Shown in pieces: positions 2,469 through 22,426 of a stretch of DNA of 64,000 nucleotides (positions are counted from its first letter, which is position 1; every line of letters begins with the position of its first letter). Both the position numbers and the translations under genes were made by a program. This DNA comes from Flavihumibacter fluminis (lineage in GTDB: Bacteria; Bacteroidota; Bacteroidia; Chitinophagales; Chitinophagaceae), in assembly GCF_021491375.1 (NCBI RefSeq), contig NZ_JAKEVY010000002.1, forward strand, positions 124,001-188,000. Reading direction: 5' to 3'. The notes under the pieces were generated by a model. The model was not told the origin of the DNA. It did not search any database and saw only the letters and a program-made list of their open reading frames with translations.

Positions 2469-5195
2469 ATGAAACAGTTCCTCTTGTTTATTGGATGTTT
2501 TTTACTGCTGCAACTACCAGGTACTGGTCAGGAAAAGAACCGCTATTCTGGTACCTATTCGCTTTCCTTTCCTCAACTGATACAGCTGATAGAAACTAAG
2601 GAAAAGATCCGGATATTTTATCCGCCTGGTGAACTGGATACACTGCAGGTACTGCTCACCGTTAGTGATCTCACCAAAATTCAATTATTGGATCAATTGC
2701 TGGGCAAGCGGGGTTGGTTTGTAGCTGAGGATACTGACGGATCTGTATACCTTTCAAAGGGCAAACCGGTACTGACTCAGTTTCCGGGAACAGGTCAAGC
2801 AGCCATAATCCCCAAACAGCCAGAACTTCCTGAAAAGGAAGTATTGCCTGTAGAAAACAGGTTGATTACCATTGGAGATGTTGATAAGAATCCCGCCGGA
2901 TCAACTGTAGTATTATCTGGCTATATAAAAGCAGCTTCCTCTGGCGAAGGACTGGCAACTGCTGAAGTTCTTGCAGCCGGTAAATCCAAAACTGTTTATA
3001 CGGATGTGTATGGTTACTATTCCATCGTACTTCCAAGAGGCAGATACCTGTTGAAGATTAACAGTGCGGGTATGCAATCAACCCAGCGACAGGTGCAGCT
3101 CAACCAGAATGGAAGGCTGGATATTGAACTGCAGGAGGCAATTAAAAGTTTACAGGCTGTAGTTGTAACAGCAGAAAAAAGTTCTGTTACCCGTAGCCTG
3201 CAGGTAGGAGCAAGCCGGCTCAATATTCAAACCATTAAACAGGTCCCGGTTATTTTTGGGGAAACGGATGTATTAAGAGTGGTATTGTCACTACCCGGTG
3301 TTACTTCAGTAGGTGAAGCTTCCAATGGCTTTAATGTTCGGGGTGGAACAGCCGATCAGAACCTGATCCTGCTGGGTGATGCTACCGTATTTAATCCTAC
3401 GCATCTCTTTGGTTTCTTTTCTGCATTTCATCCAGACCTGGTTAAACAGGTAGAATTATACAAAGCCAGTATTCCTGAAAAATTTGGTGGCAGATTATCC
3501 TCTGTTCTTGATATAACCTTGCAGGATGGTAATGCAAAAAAATGGACAGGCAATGCAGGAATTGGTCCGCTTACCAGTTCATTGAGCATAGGCGGACCTA
3601 TTAAAAAAGAGAAAGCAACCCTTTCTTTGGGAGCCCGAACCAGTTACTCCAACTGGATCATGAACCAATTGCCTGATAAGGCATTCAGACAAAGCAGGGC
3701 TTCTTTTTATGATATCAACCTGCGTACTGCTTTTAACCTTAATAAAAAAAACACACTCTATCTGACCGGGTACCTGAGCGAGGATGCTTTCCGGTTTAAC
3801 CGTGATACCAGTTTTCAATATGGAAACAGAAACCTGAATATTAAATGGAAACATCAGTTCAACGCCCTGCTTTCCGGAACATTTACAATTGGTACGGATC
3901 ATTACCAATACCAGGTTGAAAGTGCAACCAACCAGGTGAATGCCTTCCGGTTAAGGTATGCTATCAATCAGCAATTTTTCCGGTCTGATTTCAATTGGCT
4001 CCTGAATGATAAACACCAGCTCAACGCAGGTTTGCAATCCACCTACTACAGTTTGCAGCCAGGCAATTATGACCCTCTTGGAACTTCTTCCCTGGTGCAA
4101 CCCAAAAAATTGAACCGGGAGCAGGCATTGGAAACTGCTATCTACCTGGGGGATCAGTATCGTATCAATTCCAATTTATCTATAAGTGCTGGAGTCAGGT
4201 GGAATCTGTTTCAGCATTTTGGTCCGGGTACAGAGTTTAAATACCTGCCGGGGCAACCCAAAGATACCACTACCATCATCGATACACTGCAATACCGAAA
4301 AGGTGAAACCATACAGCGCTGGACTGCACCCGAATGGCGACTGAGCATGCGCTATCTGCTCACAGAAAACAGTTCGATAAAAGCAAGCTTTACCACAACA
4401 AGGCAATTCCTGCACATGTTATCGAATACAGTTACTATTTCACCTACTGATATCTGGAAGTTGAGTGATCAGCATATTCGTCCGCAGGAAGGCTGGCAGT
4501 TATCAGCAGGTTATTATCGAAGTTTTGCTTCCAATAAATGGGAAGCTTCTATTGAAGTTTATTTTAAAAGAATTGCAAACTATCTCGATTTTAAAAGTGG
4601 TGCCCGCCTGCTTCTCAATGAACATCTTGAAACTGATTTGATCAATACAAGGGGTAAGGCCTATGGCGCGGAATTTTTACTGAAAAAACCGGACGGCAGA
4701 TTGAATGGCTGGTTCAGTTATACCTACTCACGGATTTTGCTCAAACAGGATGATCCATTGGCGGGAGAGTTGATTAATAGGGGCAACTATTATCCGGGCA
4801 ATGCTGATCGCCCGCACAATATGAACCTGATTGCGAACTATCGGTTTTCACACCGGTTGAGTTTGTCCTGGAATCTGATTTTTACTTCAGGCAGACCGAT
4901 AACCTTACCGATAGCAGTTTTCAACCAGGGTGGTGTAACCGGATTGATCTATTCTGACAGAAATGAATACAGGATCCCGAATTATTTTCGGTCCGATATT
5001 TCTTTTACCATTGAGGGCAATCACAAAGTGAATCAACGATTCCATAATGCCTGGTCAGTAGGAGCCTATAATATCACCGCCAGGGAGAATCCTTATTCTG
5101 TTTATTATGTTCAGGAACAGGGTACTATCAATGGCTATCAGCTGTCCATTTTTGGTACGATCATTCCCTTTGTATCCTATAAAATAAAATTTTAA
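2469..5195 (+). CDS. TonB-dependent outer-membrane receptor with STN-like and CarboxypepD_reg domains
   Basis: A 908-residue protein. After a signal peptide (to about residue 20) comes a secretin/TonB short N-terminal-like region (about 28-100), then a linker. Next is a carboxypeptidase-regulatory-like beta-sandwich (about 148-225, VVLSGYIKAASSGEGL) and a plug domain (about 235-345) with the typical FNVRGGTADQNLILLGD stretch. The rest is a long beta-barrel rich in aromatic strands that ends in a terminal aromatic residue (SYKIKF). Such receptors import ligands across the outer membrane using TonB energy. The STN-like region can mean coupling to an anti-sigma factor in other systems, but no sigma/anti-sigma pair is next to this gene. 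A DUF4249 lipoprotein follows after 2 bases, a pairing typical of this receptor class. Confidence 0.92.
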   Translation: MKQFLLFIGCFLLLQLPGTGQEKNRYSGTYSLSFPQLIQLIETKEKIRIFYPPGELDTLQVLLTVSDLTKIQLLDQLLGKRGWFVAEDTDGSVYLSKGKPVLTQFPGTGQAAIIPKQPELPEKEVLPVENRLITIGDVDKNPAGSTVVLSGYIKAASSGEGLATAEVLAAGKSKTVYTDVYGYYSIVLPRGRYLLKINSAGMQSTQRQVQLNQNGRLDIELQEAIKSLQAVVVTAEKSSVTRSLQVGASRLNIQTIKQVPVIFGETDVLRVVLSLPGVTSVGEASNGFNVRGGTADQNLILLGDATVFNPTHLFGFFSAFHPDLVKQVELYKASIPEKFGGRLSSVLDITLQDGNAKKWTGNAGIGPLTSSLSIGGPIKKEKATLSLGARTSYSNWIMNQLPDKAFRQSRASFYDINLRTAFNLNKKNTLYLTGYLSEDAFRFNRDTSFQYGNRNLNIKWKHQFNALLSGTFTIGTDHYQYQVESATNQVNAFRLRYAINQQFFRSDFNWLLNDKHQLNAGLQSTYYSLQPGNYDPLGTSSLVQPKKLNREQALETAIYLGDQYRINSNLSISAGVRWNLFQHFGPGTEFKYLPGQPKDTTTIIDTLQYRKGETIQRWTAPEWRLSMRYLLTENSSIKASFTTTRQFLHMLSNTVTISPTDIWKLSDQHIRPQEGWQLSAGYYRSFASNKWEASIEVYFKRIANYLDFKSGARLLLNEHLETDLINTRGKAYGAEFLLKKPDGRLNGWFSYTYSRILLKQDDPLAGELINRGNYYPGNADRPHNMNLIANYRFSHRLSLSWNLIFTSGRPITLPIAVFNQGGVTGLIYSDRNEYRIPNYFRSDISFTIEGNHKVNQRFHNAWSVGAYNITARENPYSVYYVQEQGTINGYQLSIFGTIIPFVSYKIKF

Positions 5196-18044: not shown

Positions 18045-19259
18045 ATGGAAATTTTTTTTCAAATACTGTTTTGGGTAAGCCTGCTGTTGCTTATCTATAT
18101 CTATATAGGATATGGACTACTGGTCTATGTCCTGGCACAAAGAAAACCAGGGTACGCGCCCGGCAAGCTGACTGACGCCGAGCTGCCTTCGGTTACAGTC
18201 CTGATCCCGGCCTTCAATGAGGCAACCGTAATAGGAGGGAAGATCCGTAATTCCCTTTCCCTGCGATATCCAAGGGAGAAATTCAGGGTGCTGGTAATAA
18301 CCGATGGTTCCACTGATGGTACAGAACAGATCGTGCGGGCATTTCCACAGGTGGACCTGCTGCATGAAACTGAGCGACTCGGAAAAGCGGCTGCCATCAA
18401 CCGGGCCATGCAGGATATAACCAGTGATCTGGTAGTTCTGACAGATGCCAATACTGTATTGAATGAAGAGGCCTTGTTGCAATTGGTACAACCCTTTGAC
18501 TATCCTGCGGTTGGTGCAGTATCAGGAGAGAAACTGGTAGTGAGTTCAGCATCCGAAGAACTTTCATCGGAAGGAGAGGGTCTTTACTGGAAATATGAAT
18601 CCTTTCTGAAGCAGAATGACGCCCGGCTTCATAGCATTGTGGGAGCCGCCGGAGAATTACTGGCATTGAGAACCAGTCTGTTTACTCCGCTGGAGCCGGA
18701 TACCGTACTGGATGATTTTATACTTTCCATGCGGATCTGTGAAGCAGGCTACAGGGTAGCGTATCAACCGGATGCAAGAGCTGTTGAGACAGGTTCTTTT
18801 AATCTGGAAGAGGAACAAAAAAGAAAGATCCGGATTGCAGCAGGAGGGTTCCAGGCGCTGGGCAGATTATCCAAAAGCTGGCAGTACGGGAACAATCCCC
18901 TTTTGTTTTTTCAATTCTTTTCCCACCGGGTTTTACGCTGGGTGGCAGCAGCACCGGCATTGATAATGCTGGCGCTAAGCACGGTTTACCTGGTAGTAAA
19001 AGGAGCTGGTGGAATATACGAACTGGCCGGATTGCTTCAGCTGCTCTTTTATAGCCTGGCTGTGATCGGCTGGCTGGGGGCTCGTACAAATACGAAATGG
19101 CCCATCGTATATATACCCTATTATTTTGTTTTCATGCATTGGGCTATCCTGGCGGGGTTGATAAAATATCTAACAGGTGGAACAGACGCCAAATGGGAAA
19201 AAGCAAACCGCATAAGGGTTCCCGTTAATCCGGATCAGGAGGAAGCATCCGGTGAATAA
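18045..19259 (+). CDS. Membrane glycosyltransferase family 2
   Basis: A 404-residue protein. One membrane helix at the N-terminus (about residues 5-30) is followed by a GT-A domain with SVTVLIPAFNEATVI, VITDGSTDGT and the metal-binding region VVLTDANTV (about 131). The acceptor-side LDDFILSMRICEAGYRV lies around 222, and three or four hydrophobic helices close the C-terminal 110 residues. This layout matches processive or chain-extending GT2 enzymes of surface polysaccharide synthesis. The usual QxxRW motif is replaced by EEQKRKIRIAAGG, so the enzyme may be non-processive. It starts 14 bases after the ROK gene, but function links it to the glycosyltransferase genes downstream. Confidence 0.85.
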   Translation: MEIFFQILFWVSLLLLIYIYIGYGLLVYVLAQRKPGYAPGKLTDAELPSVTVLIPAFNEATVIGGKIRNSLSLRYPREKFRVLVITDGSTDGTEQIVRAFPQVDLLHETERLGKAAAINRAMQDITSDLVVLTDANTVLNEEALLQLVQPFDYPAVGAVSGEKLVVSSASEELSSEGEGLYWKYESFLKQNDARLHSIVGAAGELLALRTSLFTPLEPDTVLDDFILSMRICEAGYRVAYQPDARAVETGSFNLEEEQKRKIRIAAGGFQALGRLSKSWQYGNNPLLFFQFFSHRVLRWVAAAPALIMLALSTVYLVVKGAGGIYELAGLLQLLFYSLAVIGWLGARTNTKWPIVYIPYYFVFMHWAILAGLIKYLTGGTDAKWEKANRIRVPVNPDQEEASGE

Positions 19260-19533: not shown

Positions 19534-19938
19534 ATGAAAAGAAAAATACTCGTAATCACAGCTAGTAAATCGATTCGATTTTTACTGCACACTGTTTTGA
19601 GTGAACAATTTACCGCCATCACTGCTTCTGAAGCAGGAGATGCTATGTATTGGTTAACCAGGTCGGAGCTGCCTTCTGCTATTGTAGTAGATCCTGAACT
19701 GCCTGATACCGCTAACTGGGAAATTGTTGAATACTTTAAAACAAGTGAGCTGTATAAGAACATACCTATGGTAGTCATTTCTTCTTTGGAAGAAGAAGAA
19801 ATCGCCACTGTGTGTTCCCGTTATGAAGTGGAAGCAGCTTTTCATAAGCCATTTAATCCCGTTGACCTTATAAAAACATTGGAAGCTTTGATCAAATCAC
19901 CTGTGGCAGGTTCAAAAAAACTGTTGAAAGTAGTTTGA
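19534..19938 (+). CDS. Stand-alone degenerate receiver (CheY-like) protein
   Basis: A 134-residue single-domain protein with the receiver fold. It has a first strand ILVIT, the phospho-acceptor-position aspartate in AIVVDPELPD (about residue 52), a serine in MVVISSLEEEE, and the invariant lysine in AFHKPFNPVDL. The acidic pair that normally binds magnesium after strand 1 is missing: ITASKS stands where VDD is usual. It is therefore probably an atypical receiver that either does not take phosphate in the normal way or works by protein contact. It is 27 bases before a sugar transferase that carries a similar domain. A 274-base gap precedes it in which I saw no clear promoter. Confidence 0.8.
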   Translation: MKRKILVITASKSIRFLLHTVLSEQFTAITASEAGDAMYWLTRSELPSAIVVDPELPDTANWEIVEYFKTSELYKNIPMVVISSLEEEEIATVCSRYEVEAAFHKPFNPVDLIKTLEALIKSPVAGSKKLLKVV

Positions 19939-19965
19939 TAAAACTTTCGTATAAACCTTACCTGA

Positions 19966-21129
19966 ATGGAACAAACTTTACAATTAACCCCAATAGCTTC
20001 CCAGCAGCCTACGTATCGCAGGTATTCTATTACCCGCGAGCATCAGGCCGCACCGGTGGCTGTTTTGCATAACAGGGAATTTTTCTTTATAGGAAAAAAT
20101 TCCCGCAATATTGATTATCTCGTTCACCTGTTTGAAGGTGGATATGCCGCTGAATCCGTTCCGAAGGCGATAGCAATTCTTCAGCGCATCGATTCTCAAT
20201 CAAAAACTATACCACAAGTTATTATCGTAGAAGGAAATTTGGAATTAGCTGAAGCAGCTAATCTGAATGCCTACCTGAAGTCAATTGAAAAGTTCCGTGC
20301 TATTCCGGTTATCATGGATTCTGCCGGCAAAATGGTGGAAGCAAAAGACAAAGCTTTGCTGATGCGTTTATTCGATGACGTTATCGATACCCGCAAAGCA
20401 GATGACAAGCTGATCCAGCGCGTTGATTTTCTTTCAAAAGTGAAAAAGAGGAACTGTTCCCGGTCTGAATATAAAATGGAACAAGTGGCTGAGCAGGCGA
20501 AACTGACGCCGCTCGGATTTGGAAGAAGACTATTTGATATCCTGGTATCTTCAACTGCACTGATACTGTTGAGTCCGCTGATGTTGCTGATCGCTCTGAT
20601 CATCAAACTGGAGAGCAGGGGGCCTGTTTTTTATATCTCGAAAAGAGCTGGTCGCGGTTACCGGATATTCAACTTTTATAAGTTTCGTACCATGAAGCTC
20701 GACGCCGAATCTCAGAAAGATGAGGTGAAGCATCGAAATGAGTACAATGAAGACAATGGATGTGTTTTCTTCAAGATTACCAATGACCCGCGTGCAACCC
20801 GCTTCGGTCGTTTCCTGAGAAATACCAGCCTGGATGAACTTCCCCAATTTTTTAATGTATTGATGGGTGATATGTCAATAGTTGGTAACCGTCCTTTGCC
20901 CTTATACGAAGCTGCCATGCTTACCACAGATGAATGGTCAAAGCGGTTCATGGCCCCAGCTGGCATAACGGGTTTATGGCAGATCCGTAAAAAAGATCGC
21001 CATTGCATGTCTGTGGAAGAGCGCATCAAACTGGACATCACCTATGCGCAAAAACAGAATTTCCTATTTGATTTATGGATCATAGCTCATACACCGCCAG
21101 CCCTGATTCAAAAATCAAATATTTCCTGA
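19966..21129 (+). CDS. Undecaprenyl-phosphate sugar-1-phosphate transferase with receiver-like N-terminal domain
   Basis: A 387-residue protein in two parts. Residues about 25-155 look like a degenerate response-regulator receiver: strand FFFIGKNS, helix, PQVIIVEGNLELAEA with glutamate where the phospho-acceptor would be, then FRAIPVIMDSAGKM. Residues about 180-387 are the bacterial sugar transferase domain. This begins RRLFDILVSSTALILLSPLM with one membrane re-entrant helix, then FYKFRTMKLDAE, LRNTSLDELPQFFNVLMG, SIVGNRPLPLYEA and PGITGLWQI-like PAGITGLWQIR. Such enzymes start exopolysaccharide or O-antigen units on a lipid carrier. The usual N-terminal membrane helices of WbaP/WcaJ are absent and replaced by the receiver-like domain. 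Confidence 0.85.
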   Translation: MEQTLQLTPIASQQPTYRRYSITREHQAAPVAVLHNREFFFIGKNSRNIDYLVHLFEGGYAAESVPKAIAILQRIDSQSKTIPQVIIVEGNLELAEAANLNAYLKSIEKFRAIPVIMDSAGKMVEAKDKALLMRLFDDVIDTRKADDKLIQRVDFLSKVKKRNCSRSEYKMEQVAEQAKLTPLGFGRRLFDILVSSTALILLSPLMLLIALIIKLESRGPVFYISKRAGRGYRIFNFYKFRTMKLDAESQKDEVKHRNEYNEDNGCVFFKITNDPRATRFGRFLRNTSLDELPQFFNVLMGDMSIVGNRPLPLYEAAMLTTDEWSKRFMAPAGITGLWQIRKKDRHCMSVEERIKLDITYAQKQNFLFDLWIIAHTPPALIQKSNIS

Positions 21130-21220: not shown

Positions 21221-22426
21221 GTGGTAACATTTTTATACATAGCCGGATTATTGATTTTTATCTACCTTTTTTGCAGCATAACCTATTTACTGGTAGTTGC
21301 AATAGCCGGACTTATGTACCGCGAAGACCCAATCCCTGAGGCCAGTGAACTGGCAAACATCCTGGTATTAATTCCAAGTTTCCGCGACGATCACATTATC
21401 TGCCATACGGTTCAGGAAGCAATTTTGCACAATTATCCCAGAGATAAATTTGACGTGATGGTAGTCGCGGACTCCCTCAAGCCGATGACAGTACAACAAC
21501 TTCGGCATCTTGGTGCAAGTGTGCTGGAGGTAAATACCAGGATGAAATCGCGCTCCATCCATTCCGCAATGGAAACATTGCTGCCCGGTCAATATGATCT
21601 GGTAATGCTGCTGGATGCAGACAATATCATGAAACCGGATTGCCTGCGACTTGTAAACAATGCGTATAAAGCAGGTCACCAGGCCATTCAATGTCATCGC
21701 ACCGCAAAAAATGAACAAACCAGTGTAGCCCTACTCGATGCAATCAGCGAAGAAATCAATAACCACCTCTTTCGGCAGGGGCAACAGGCTCTTGGTTTTT
21801 CTGCAGCTCCTTCCGGCTCCGGGATGGCATTCGAATTTAACCTGCTTAAATCCATCTTCAACTGGAAACCGATTTTGGAGAACCCCGGTGAAGACAGGGA
21901 AATTGATATGCAATTGTTGAAAAGGGGTATCCAGATGCATTACCTACCGGAAGCATGGGTGCTGGACGAAAAAGTGGCCAGTCATGATGTGTTCGAAAAG
22001 CAACGCCTGCGCTGGCTGGAAGCCCAGTGGTACCATCTTCGGATGTTCTGGGAACCGGATATGATTGGCATCTATAAAGACCGCCATTATTACAATAAAC
22101 TGGTGCAAAACTTATTATTACCAAGGTCGCTATACCTGGTTGTTTTTTCGGCCATCCTTGTATTGGTCATCATTCGATATGCCACCGGATGGGCTTTTTT
22201 CTTTCCGGTGCCCGGTTGGTGGCTGAGCCTGCTCCTGTTTTTCCTGCTTACCCTTGCCATCGCCATGCCTTCCAGGTACTATTCTTCTCCCACCATCAAA
22301 GCATTACTCAGTTTACCTGCCCTGATGGTAGCCATGTTAAGAGCATTGCTGAAAGTAAAAACCGGCAGAAAAGAGTTTATTCCAACTCCGAAATCCTATA
22401 CCGGGCTGAAAGAATCTCAGAAATAA
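21221..22426 (+). CDS. Membrane glycosyltransferase family 2
   Basis: A 401-residue protein starting at GTG 21221; the ATG two bases upstream is in another frame and hits a stop at once. It has an N-terminal membrane helix (FLYIAGLLIFIYLFC), then a GT-A core with ANILVLIPSFRDD, VMVVADSLKPM, and the DxD-type LLDADNIMKP near residue 131. GEDREIDMQLL follows, then the QxxRW-type motif KQRLRWLEAQW near 266, and two to three C-terminal helices. The QxxRW motif suggests a processive polymerase-like enzyme. The donor and the polymer are not visible. It is separated from the sugar transferase by a terminator but belongs to the same functional neighbourhood. Confidence 0.86.
   Translation: MVTFLYIAGLLIFIYLFCSITYLLVVAIAGLMYREDPIPEASELANILVLIPSFRDDHIICHTVQEAILHNYPRDKFDVMVVADSLKPMTVQQLRHLGASVLEVNTRMKSRSIHSAMETLLPGQYDLVMLLDADNIMKPDCLRLVNNAYKAGHQAIQCHRTAKNEQTSVALLDAISEEINNHLFRQGQQALGFSAAPSGSGMAFEFNLLKSIFNWKPILENPGEDREIDMQLLKRGIQMHYLPEAWVLDEKVASHDVFEKQRLRWLEAQWYHLRMFWEPDMIGIYKDRHYYNKLVQNLLLPRSLYLVVFSAILVLVIIRYATGWAFFFPVPGWWLSLLLFFLLTLAIAMPSRYYSSPTIKALLSLPALMVAMLRALLKVKTGRKEFIPTPKSYTGLKESQK

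Follow-up and report, generated by a model that had tools for sequence, protein, structure and literature searches.

We identified a two-gene module in Flavihumibacter fluminis that probably regulates the start of surface glycan synthesis. The module consists of a stand-alone single-domain receiver (RR) followed by a monotopic phosphoglycosyl transferase (PGT) whose N-terminal domain is a pseudo-receiver. The genes lie in a 64,000-nucleotide stretch of contig NZ_JAKEVY010000002.1 (hereafter the window), and 27 nt separate the stop codon of the RR from the start of the PGT. The pair is a conserved module that is widespread in Bacteroidota. We favor a reading in which the RR binds the PGT, most likely via the pseudo-receiver, and switches its catalysis. 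The coordinates of the two genes, their domains and the adjacent glycosyltransferase genes are given in the table.

Table. Positions of the RR-PGT module and its neighbors within the window.
Feature	Coordinates	Strand	Basis
Family 2 glycosyltransferase upstream of RR	18045..19259	+	Pfam
Stand-alone single-domain receiver (RR), 134 aa	19534..19938	+	PF00072 match, alignment to 4ja2
Monotopic phosphoglycosyl transferase (PGT) with receiver-like N-terminus, 387 aa	19966..21129	+	
Pseudo-receiver domain of PGT, residues 38-180	20077..20505	+	AlphaFold2 model, profile matches, VIA-align
Bac_transf catalytic domain of PGT, residues 187-381	20524..21108	+	PF02397, 202.6 bits
Family 2 glycosyltransferase, first gene after PGT	21221..22426	+	EpsU model 89.5 bits, cut-off 700

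The window RR passes the Pfam threshold for Response_reg (PF00072) with 35.2 bits against a cut-off of 30.2. Its residues were read from an alignment with the response regulator 4ja2; the PhoB chain, an engineered D10A/D53E mutant, was not used for this reading. At the end of strand 1, the Mg2+-binding acidic pair is missing, with T9 and A10 facing D9 and D10 of 4ja2. The acceptor D53, residue S83 (which faces a threonine in 4ja2) and K105 are all retained. The first-pass annotation had described this gene as encoding a one-domain receiver that keeps its Asp and Lys and has lost the acidic pair, and these residues confirm that description.

The catalytic domain of the PGT contains both D191-X12-P204 and the D290-E291 dyad. 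These four residues are invariant in all 62 relatives, as are all seven positions of catalytic or structural importance that were examined in the domain. A Foldseek search matched the protein to PglC (8g1n, E 1.8e-11). Four other Bac_transf proteins are encoded in the same genome, three of them bearing transmembrane (TM) segments (461-472 aa) and one short (212 aa). The N-terminus of the window PGT has no TM segment. Its highest 19-residue hydropathy value is 0.83, in agreement with the earlier claim that this sugar transferase does not have the usual N-terminal membrane helices, and the maxima of 28 TM-bearing PGTs from outside the family range from 1.98 upward.

Large monoPGTs of the WbaP type have an N-terminal cytoplasmic domain for dimerization and regulation, as described in a study of WbaP (Dodge et al., eLife 2024, PMC10942596). 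The catalytic domain of the window PGT belongs to the same family as that of WbaP. However, the two features that mark large monoPGTs of the WbaP/EpsZ type, an N-terminal membrane bundle and PF13727, are both missing from the window PGT; PF13727 was matched neither by this protein at E<=1 nor by any of 52 family N-domains at E<=0.1. In profile comparisons the N-domain matches canonical PGT N-domains at 1-11%, compared with 97.9-99.4% for receivers, and its assignment as a canonical PGT N-domain was rejected. Assignment as a soluble PGT N-domain of the acidobacterial type was also rejected (under 1% by profile comparison). WbaP (8t53) is listed by both Foldseek and VIA-align, yet the match extends across both domains at an rmsd above 20 and is uninformative on the N-domain.

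An AlphaFold2 model of the PGT shows five beta-alpha units at residues 38-180, with a long last helix (147-180) leading into the catalytic domain. The mean pLDDT is 76, and ten-residue blocks within residues 41-170 reach 80-93 with the exception of 121-130 (62). The pTM of 0.48 makes the relative placement of the two domains uninformative. Structure prediction of this region had been proposed in the first-pass annotation, and both the predicted receiver fold and the profile matches agree with the receiver-like domain described there. The N-terminus of the window PGT by itself has no receiver match in Pfam, and just four of the 52 family N-domains reach PF00072 singly. A profile built from all 52 matches the RR family at 97.6% (hhalign, E 4e-12) and 93 PDB sequences at E<=1, the best being 3n53 (E 1.1e-9); the 60 listed matches are receiver proteins by name, except for one de novo protein. 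A profile of the 30 nearer members matches receivers at 99.4%, and the 20 diverged N-domains missed by the family profile still do so at 99.1% over 124 columns. The same comparison gave 21.5% for the N-domains of canonical PGTs (n=28) and 0.2% for those of acidobacterial PGTs (n=4). In VIA-align the domain aligns with receiver 3crn (Z 12.4, rmsd 2.6, 120 residues) and with the PhoB D10A/D53E double mutant (Z 12.1). However, arginine decarboxylases score equally high (Z 12.3), so the fold by itself is not specific for receivers.

None of the residues used for phosphorylation (acidic pair, Asp, Lys) is found in the N-domain of the window PGT. G43 and K44 occupy the positions of the acidic pair, E89 aligns with the acceptor D53 of the RR, and T142 stands at the position of the lysine. 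Given the receiver fold and profile matches together with these substitutions, we assign the domain as a pseudo-receiver, a receiver homologue without phosphorylation residues. G43 is kept in 61 of the 62 relatives, and the residue aligned with the lysine is variable. The glutamate noted earlier at the acceptor position is present, though it is not fixed among relatives (Glu in 30, Asp in 23, Asn in five and other residues in four). Both Glu and Asp occur at this position inside Flavihumibacter, and E89 as a fixed phosphomimic was rejected on account of this alternation.

The first-pass annotation had suggested looking for the two genes together in other genomes, and they co-occur widely. Of 129 distinct PGTs of the family whose N-terminus is soluble, 123 have an RR directly upstream; the receiver identity of the N-terminal part is taken here from alignments and profiles rather than from tests of each protein. 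By sample, these are 57 of 62 in the earlier loci (80 of 131 confirmed genome-collection loci were kept), 34 of 35 in a phylum survey and 32 of 32 in a class survey. An RR was scored as directly upstream if it was on the same strand, at a gap of -120 to 300, no longer than 200 aa and matched by the RR profile. Identical PGT proteins were counted once, and none of the class-set proteins (32 PGTs and 32 RRs) duplicates one from the earlier samples. Across 392 genomes, the phylum survey yielded 50 strong places in 47 genomes, three of them already among the earlier-locus proteins. The spacing between RR and PGT has a median of 32 nt, and the genes overlap in 14 of 91 cases.

Family PGTs without the N-domain are preceded by an RR in only four of 12 cases in the phylum survey. 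These are three from a single genus (L143, L148 and L151) and L129. PGTs from outside the family have none (0/20 in the phylum survey and 0/27 among the earlier loci, where one of the 27, L084, has fewer than 300 bases upstream). The 20 controls are the 20 best-ranked of 50 lower-scoring places, and several come from one family. Fisher tests for the soluble-N PGTs give p values of 1.3e-5 against the short family PGTs and 4e-14 against the other PGTs. A PGT was classed as short with an N-terminal part under 90 aa and as TM-bearing with a hydropathy over 1.9. With the first cut-offs used (60 aa and 1.7), L131 (RR present, hydropathy 1.83) drops out and L154 (no RR, N-terminal part of 62 aa) comes in, giving 33/35 rather than 34/35. 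The earlier loci contain three short family PGTs, L080 and L082 without an RR, and L011, in which the frame is interrupted and the scored 'RR' is its own N-terminal part. L073 is a long fusion without an RR. In two of the control loci, L165 and L173, the RR profile does match the upstream protein, but at 570 and 566 aa these proteins exceed the 200-aa limit and were not counted.

The N-domain is present in all 14 other genomes of the genus and in three of 44 further relatives. Named hosts are, among others, Chitinophaga, Puia, Pinibacter, Fulvivirga, Flexithrix, Paradesertivirga and a Saprospiraceae bacterium, along with a Flammeovirgaceae plasmid and a Bacteroides finegoldii plasmid record. 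Records from other phyla among the 80 loci fall outside the family by catalytic-domain score, with the exception of L070, a metagenome-assembled genome (MAG) labelled Thalassovita, a label that may be wrong. The six soluble-N PGTs without an adjacent RR are L046, L047, L051, L057, L061 and L134. One MAG carries two pseudo-receiver PGTs, one with an RR upstream and the other without (L050/L061). In a Flavihumibacter MAG (L011/L031) a stop lies between the pseudo-receiver and the catalytic domain in the PGT frame, reflecting either an assembly error or a real split. The Flexithrix fusion (L073, 3955-6828) is a 958-aa protein with a long, different N-terminal extension that ends in a pseudo-receiver-like region and a Bac_transf domain. 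A natural protein joining an RR to a pseudo-receiver PGT would be direct evidence of contact; none was found among the matches listed, and the longest frame in the 63 class-survey places is 465 aa.

Single-domain RRs can have targets that are encoded elsewhere. The two genes could be merely co-transcribed: the RR would then act on something other than the PGT, for example on gene expression, and the pseudo-receiver would structurally replace the canonical dimerization domain. The surrounding gene order is consistent with this explanation, as it reflects a wider cluster: a GT2-cluster gene directly follows the PGT in 30 of 40 relatives examined and is the upstream neighbor in 15 of the 40, 11 of them on the same strand. 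However, the single-domain RR adjoins most PGTs with the N-domain and none of the 20 survey PGTs from outside the family. In addition, RR and N-domain alike are receivers, and this fold commonly pairs with itself. We consider mere co-transcription unlikely.

Outside Flavihumibacter, 98 of 112 RRs (67/80 and 31/32) have every residue expected of a phospho-receiver, namely the acidic pair, the Asp, the Ser/Thr and the Lys. The 80 include the four RRs that precede short PGTs, and L011 was excluded from the residue counts. Gln replaces the Lys in four RRs (L021, L036, L037 and L058), and the stand-alone RRs of L150, L156 and L208, all from one family, have Glu in place of the acceptor Asp. None of the 14 Flavihumibacter RRs has the complete set. 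T9 is found in all 14, and position 10 is Glu in seven, Ala in six (including the window species) and Gly in one; D53, S83 and K105 are retained throughout. Among the lineages sampled, the acidic pair is lost specifically in Flavihumibacter, and the loss is incomplete in the seven species that keep one acid (E10). The earlier generalization to paired degenerate receivers does not hold, since the RR is usually intact outside this genus. It is very improbable that the Flavihumibacter RR continues to be phosphorylated, at a modified site, and does not differ from the RRs of other lineages: the retained residues, with E10 in half of the species, fit such a site, but the combination of T9 with Ala or Gly in the others leaves no acid at either position.

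Given the complete site in most RRs outside the genus, the window RR is most simply interpreted, from these sequences, as a derived form of a normal phospho-receiver. The dN/dS values of the RR are 0.03-0.08 in four of five Flavihumibacter pairs (the fifth is saturated), which indicates purifying selection and a gene that is not decaying. The corresponding values for the pseudo-receiver are 0.05-0.12.

We found no kinase gene beside the window pair among the seven window proteins read by Pfam. At other loci a kinase-receiver-Hpt protein is encoded upstream of the module (L143, L079 and L081 by Pfam, with the Hpt match of L079 slightly below the cut-off; L148 and L151 alike by phmmer). The L151 kinase query overlaps a receiver, and we relied on L148 and L151 themselves, on Pfam-checked proteins and on matches to the L143 query. 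In the window's own family, a receiver-Hpt end is present in L132; in the extended form of this locus (L209), the gene just before the RR encodes, by phmmer, a kinase-like protein of 1547 aa. Receiver-kinase proteins are found beside the module in L140 and L144 (Pfam). Neighboring kinases were flagged by phmmer in nine of 113 family rows and in four of 20 extended loci, and most loci have none in the DNA examined. In L134 (3865-4194 and 2831-3862, minus strand; extended as L228) the genes immediately before a pseudo-receiver PGT encode a FIST_C protein and a histidine kinase, and an RR is absent from that position. In L143, L148 and L151 the genes for a hybrid kinase-receiver-Hpt protein, an RR and a short PGT stand in a row, forming a compact phosphorelay without a pseudo-receiver (the Pfam check covers L143).

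These kinase-RR-short PGT loci suggest that the RR may also work without a pseudo-receiver. They are one argument for a second alternative, in which the RR acts directly on the catalytic domain or the membrane face of the PGT, and the pseudo-receiver serves only for dimerization or stability of the enzyme. A modelled complex of the myxobacterial proteins EpsW and EpsZ (described below) points in the same direction. However, the presence of an RR follows that of the N-domain among family PGTs (34/35 with it against 4/12 without), and RR distances agree more closely with those of the N-domain than with those of the catalytic domain. For 80 pairs, thinned from 91 by removing near-identical ones, the partial correlation of RR with pseudo-receiver distances is 0.43 beyond the catalytic domain, and that of RR with catalytic-domain distances given the pseudo-receiver is 0.21. 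In a permutation test, which ignores phylogeny, none of 500 permutations reached the partial correlation. This modest correlation is compatible with control of the PGT through its pseudo-receiver, although the signal is weak. Action of the RR on the catalytic domain without the pseudo-receiver appears distinctly unlikely.

The published case that we found of an RR acting directly on an initiating PGT comes from myxobacteria. According to that report, phosphorylated EpsW, a single-domain RR of Myxococcus xanthus, is near the PGT EpsZ in vivo, co-expression of EpsW raises EpsZ PGT activity in a heterologous host, and in a model of the complex EpsW touches the DUF and the catalytic domain alike (Schwabe et al., mBio 2025, PMC12802240). 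In both systems a single-domain RR of the same pathway would act with the initiating PGT, and the window RR is encoded next to its PGT, as in 123 of 129 relatives. However, the large PGT EpsZ contains a DUF along with a membrane bundle of four helices; the window PGT has neither and carries the pseudo-receiver instead. Phosphorylated EpsW is required in M. xanthus, whereas the Flavihumibacter RR has no acidic pair. The window RR scores 28.5 bits with the EpsW model NF041866 (cut-off 200), and the window PGT scores 163.2 bits with the EpsZ model NF041877 (cut-off 800). As these cut-offs are far from reached, the likeness is one of mechanism and not of membership. The main text of that paper nowhere uses the word stem 'bacteroid'. 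The same source mentions small monoPGTs that carry extra regulatory domains, receivers among them (O'Toole et al., PNAS 2021). As cited there, these proteins have a receiver fused to the catalytic domain of a small monoPGT, like the window PGT, and that study may cover receiver-PGT fusions. We found no paper on the pair of RR and pseudo-receiver PGT in Bacteroidota in the open-access literature searched.

By analogy with EpsW and EpsZ, we infer that the RR controls the PGT by direct contact and probably docks on its pseudo-receiver. The PGT, judging from its family, would move a sugar-1-phosphate to a membrane polyprenyl phosphate. The pseudo-receiver, with its long helix leading to the catalytic domain, stands where large PGTs have their membrane bundle and regulatory domain. 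The RR from the upstream gene would dock on the PGT, most likely at the pseudo-receiver, and catalysis could then be switched, presumably on, by an altered orientation or pairing of the catalytic domains. In the ancestral state binding would depend on phosphorylation of the RR, carried out in some lineages by hybrid kinase-Hpt proteins. As the Flavihumibacter RR has lost the normal metal site, the interaction there is probably weakly dependent on phosphorylation or independent of it. The RR would act more as a subunit, its phosphorylation step eroded while selection keeps both proteins.

The first-pass annotation had read the two degenerate receivers as control by protein contact instead of phosphorelay. 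Contact is plausible and has a published precedent in another phylum, in the myxobacterial proteins (PMC12802240). However, 'instead of' fails for the module as a whole, given the complete RRs outside the genus and the kinases at some loci. More tentatively, a degenerate receiver may have replaced the dimerization domain and may pair with the RR as a receiver-receiver heterodimer, so that in Flavihumibacter a former phospho-switch has become a phosphorylation-independent structural activator or subunit. We regard this specific scheme as possible rather than likely.

The module bears on how bacteria gate the first step of glycan assembly, which consumes the lipid carrier. If the heterodimer scheme is correct, a receiver in Flavihumibacter has come to serve an enzyme of glycan initiation as its structural activator. 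The Bacteroidota module has a simpler architecture than the myxobacterial system, and its natural variants, with or without the pseudo-receiver, with intact or damaged RRs and with linked kinases, allow separate tests of whether the two proteins touch, whether phosphorylation is needed and what the pseudo-receiver does.

Several other PGT loci differ in their surroundings. Four acidobacterial PGTs of 381-384 aa (L086, L089, L092 and L094) have a soluble N-terminal part of about 180 aa that has no receiver match by profile. This part is GGDEF-like by eye only, and a Pfam scan of it in L086 gave no match. The short family PGTs without an adjacent RR in L133, L141, L152 and L153 lie near DUF4842 and DUF4114 proteins (Pfam). 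A receiver-PAS-SpoIIE protein is encoded upstream of the short PGT in L173. At L165 (features at 1176-2885 and 3637-3987), a glycosyltransferase of the WecG type, whose Bac_transf match is sub-threshold, is encoded beside a short PGT, and a STAS-domain gene lies just after the PGT.
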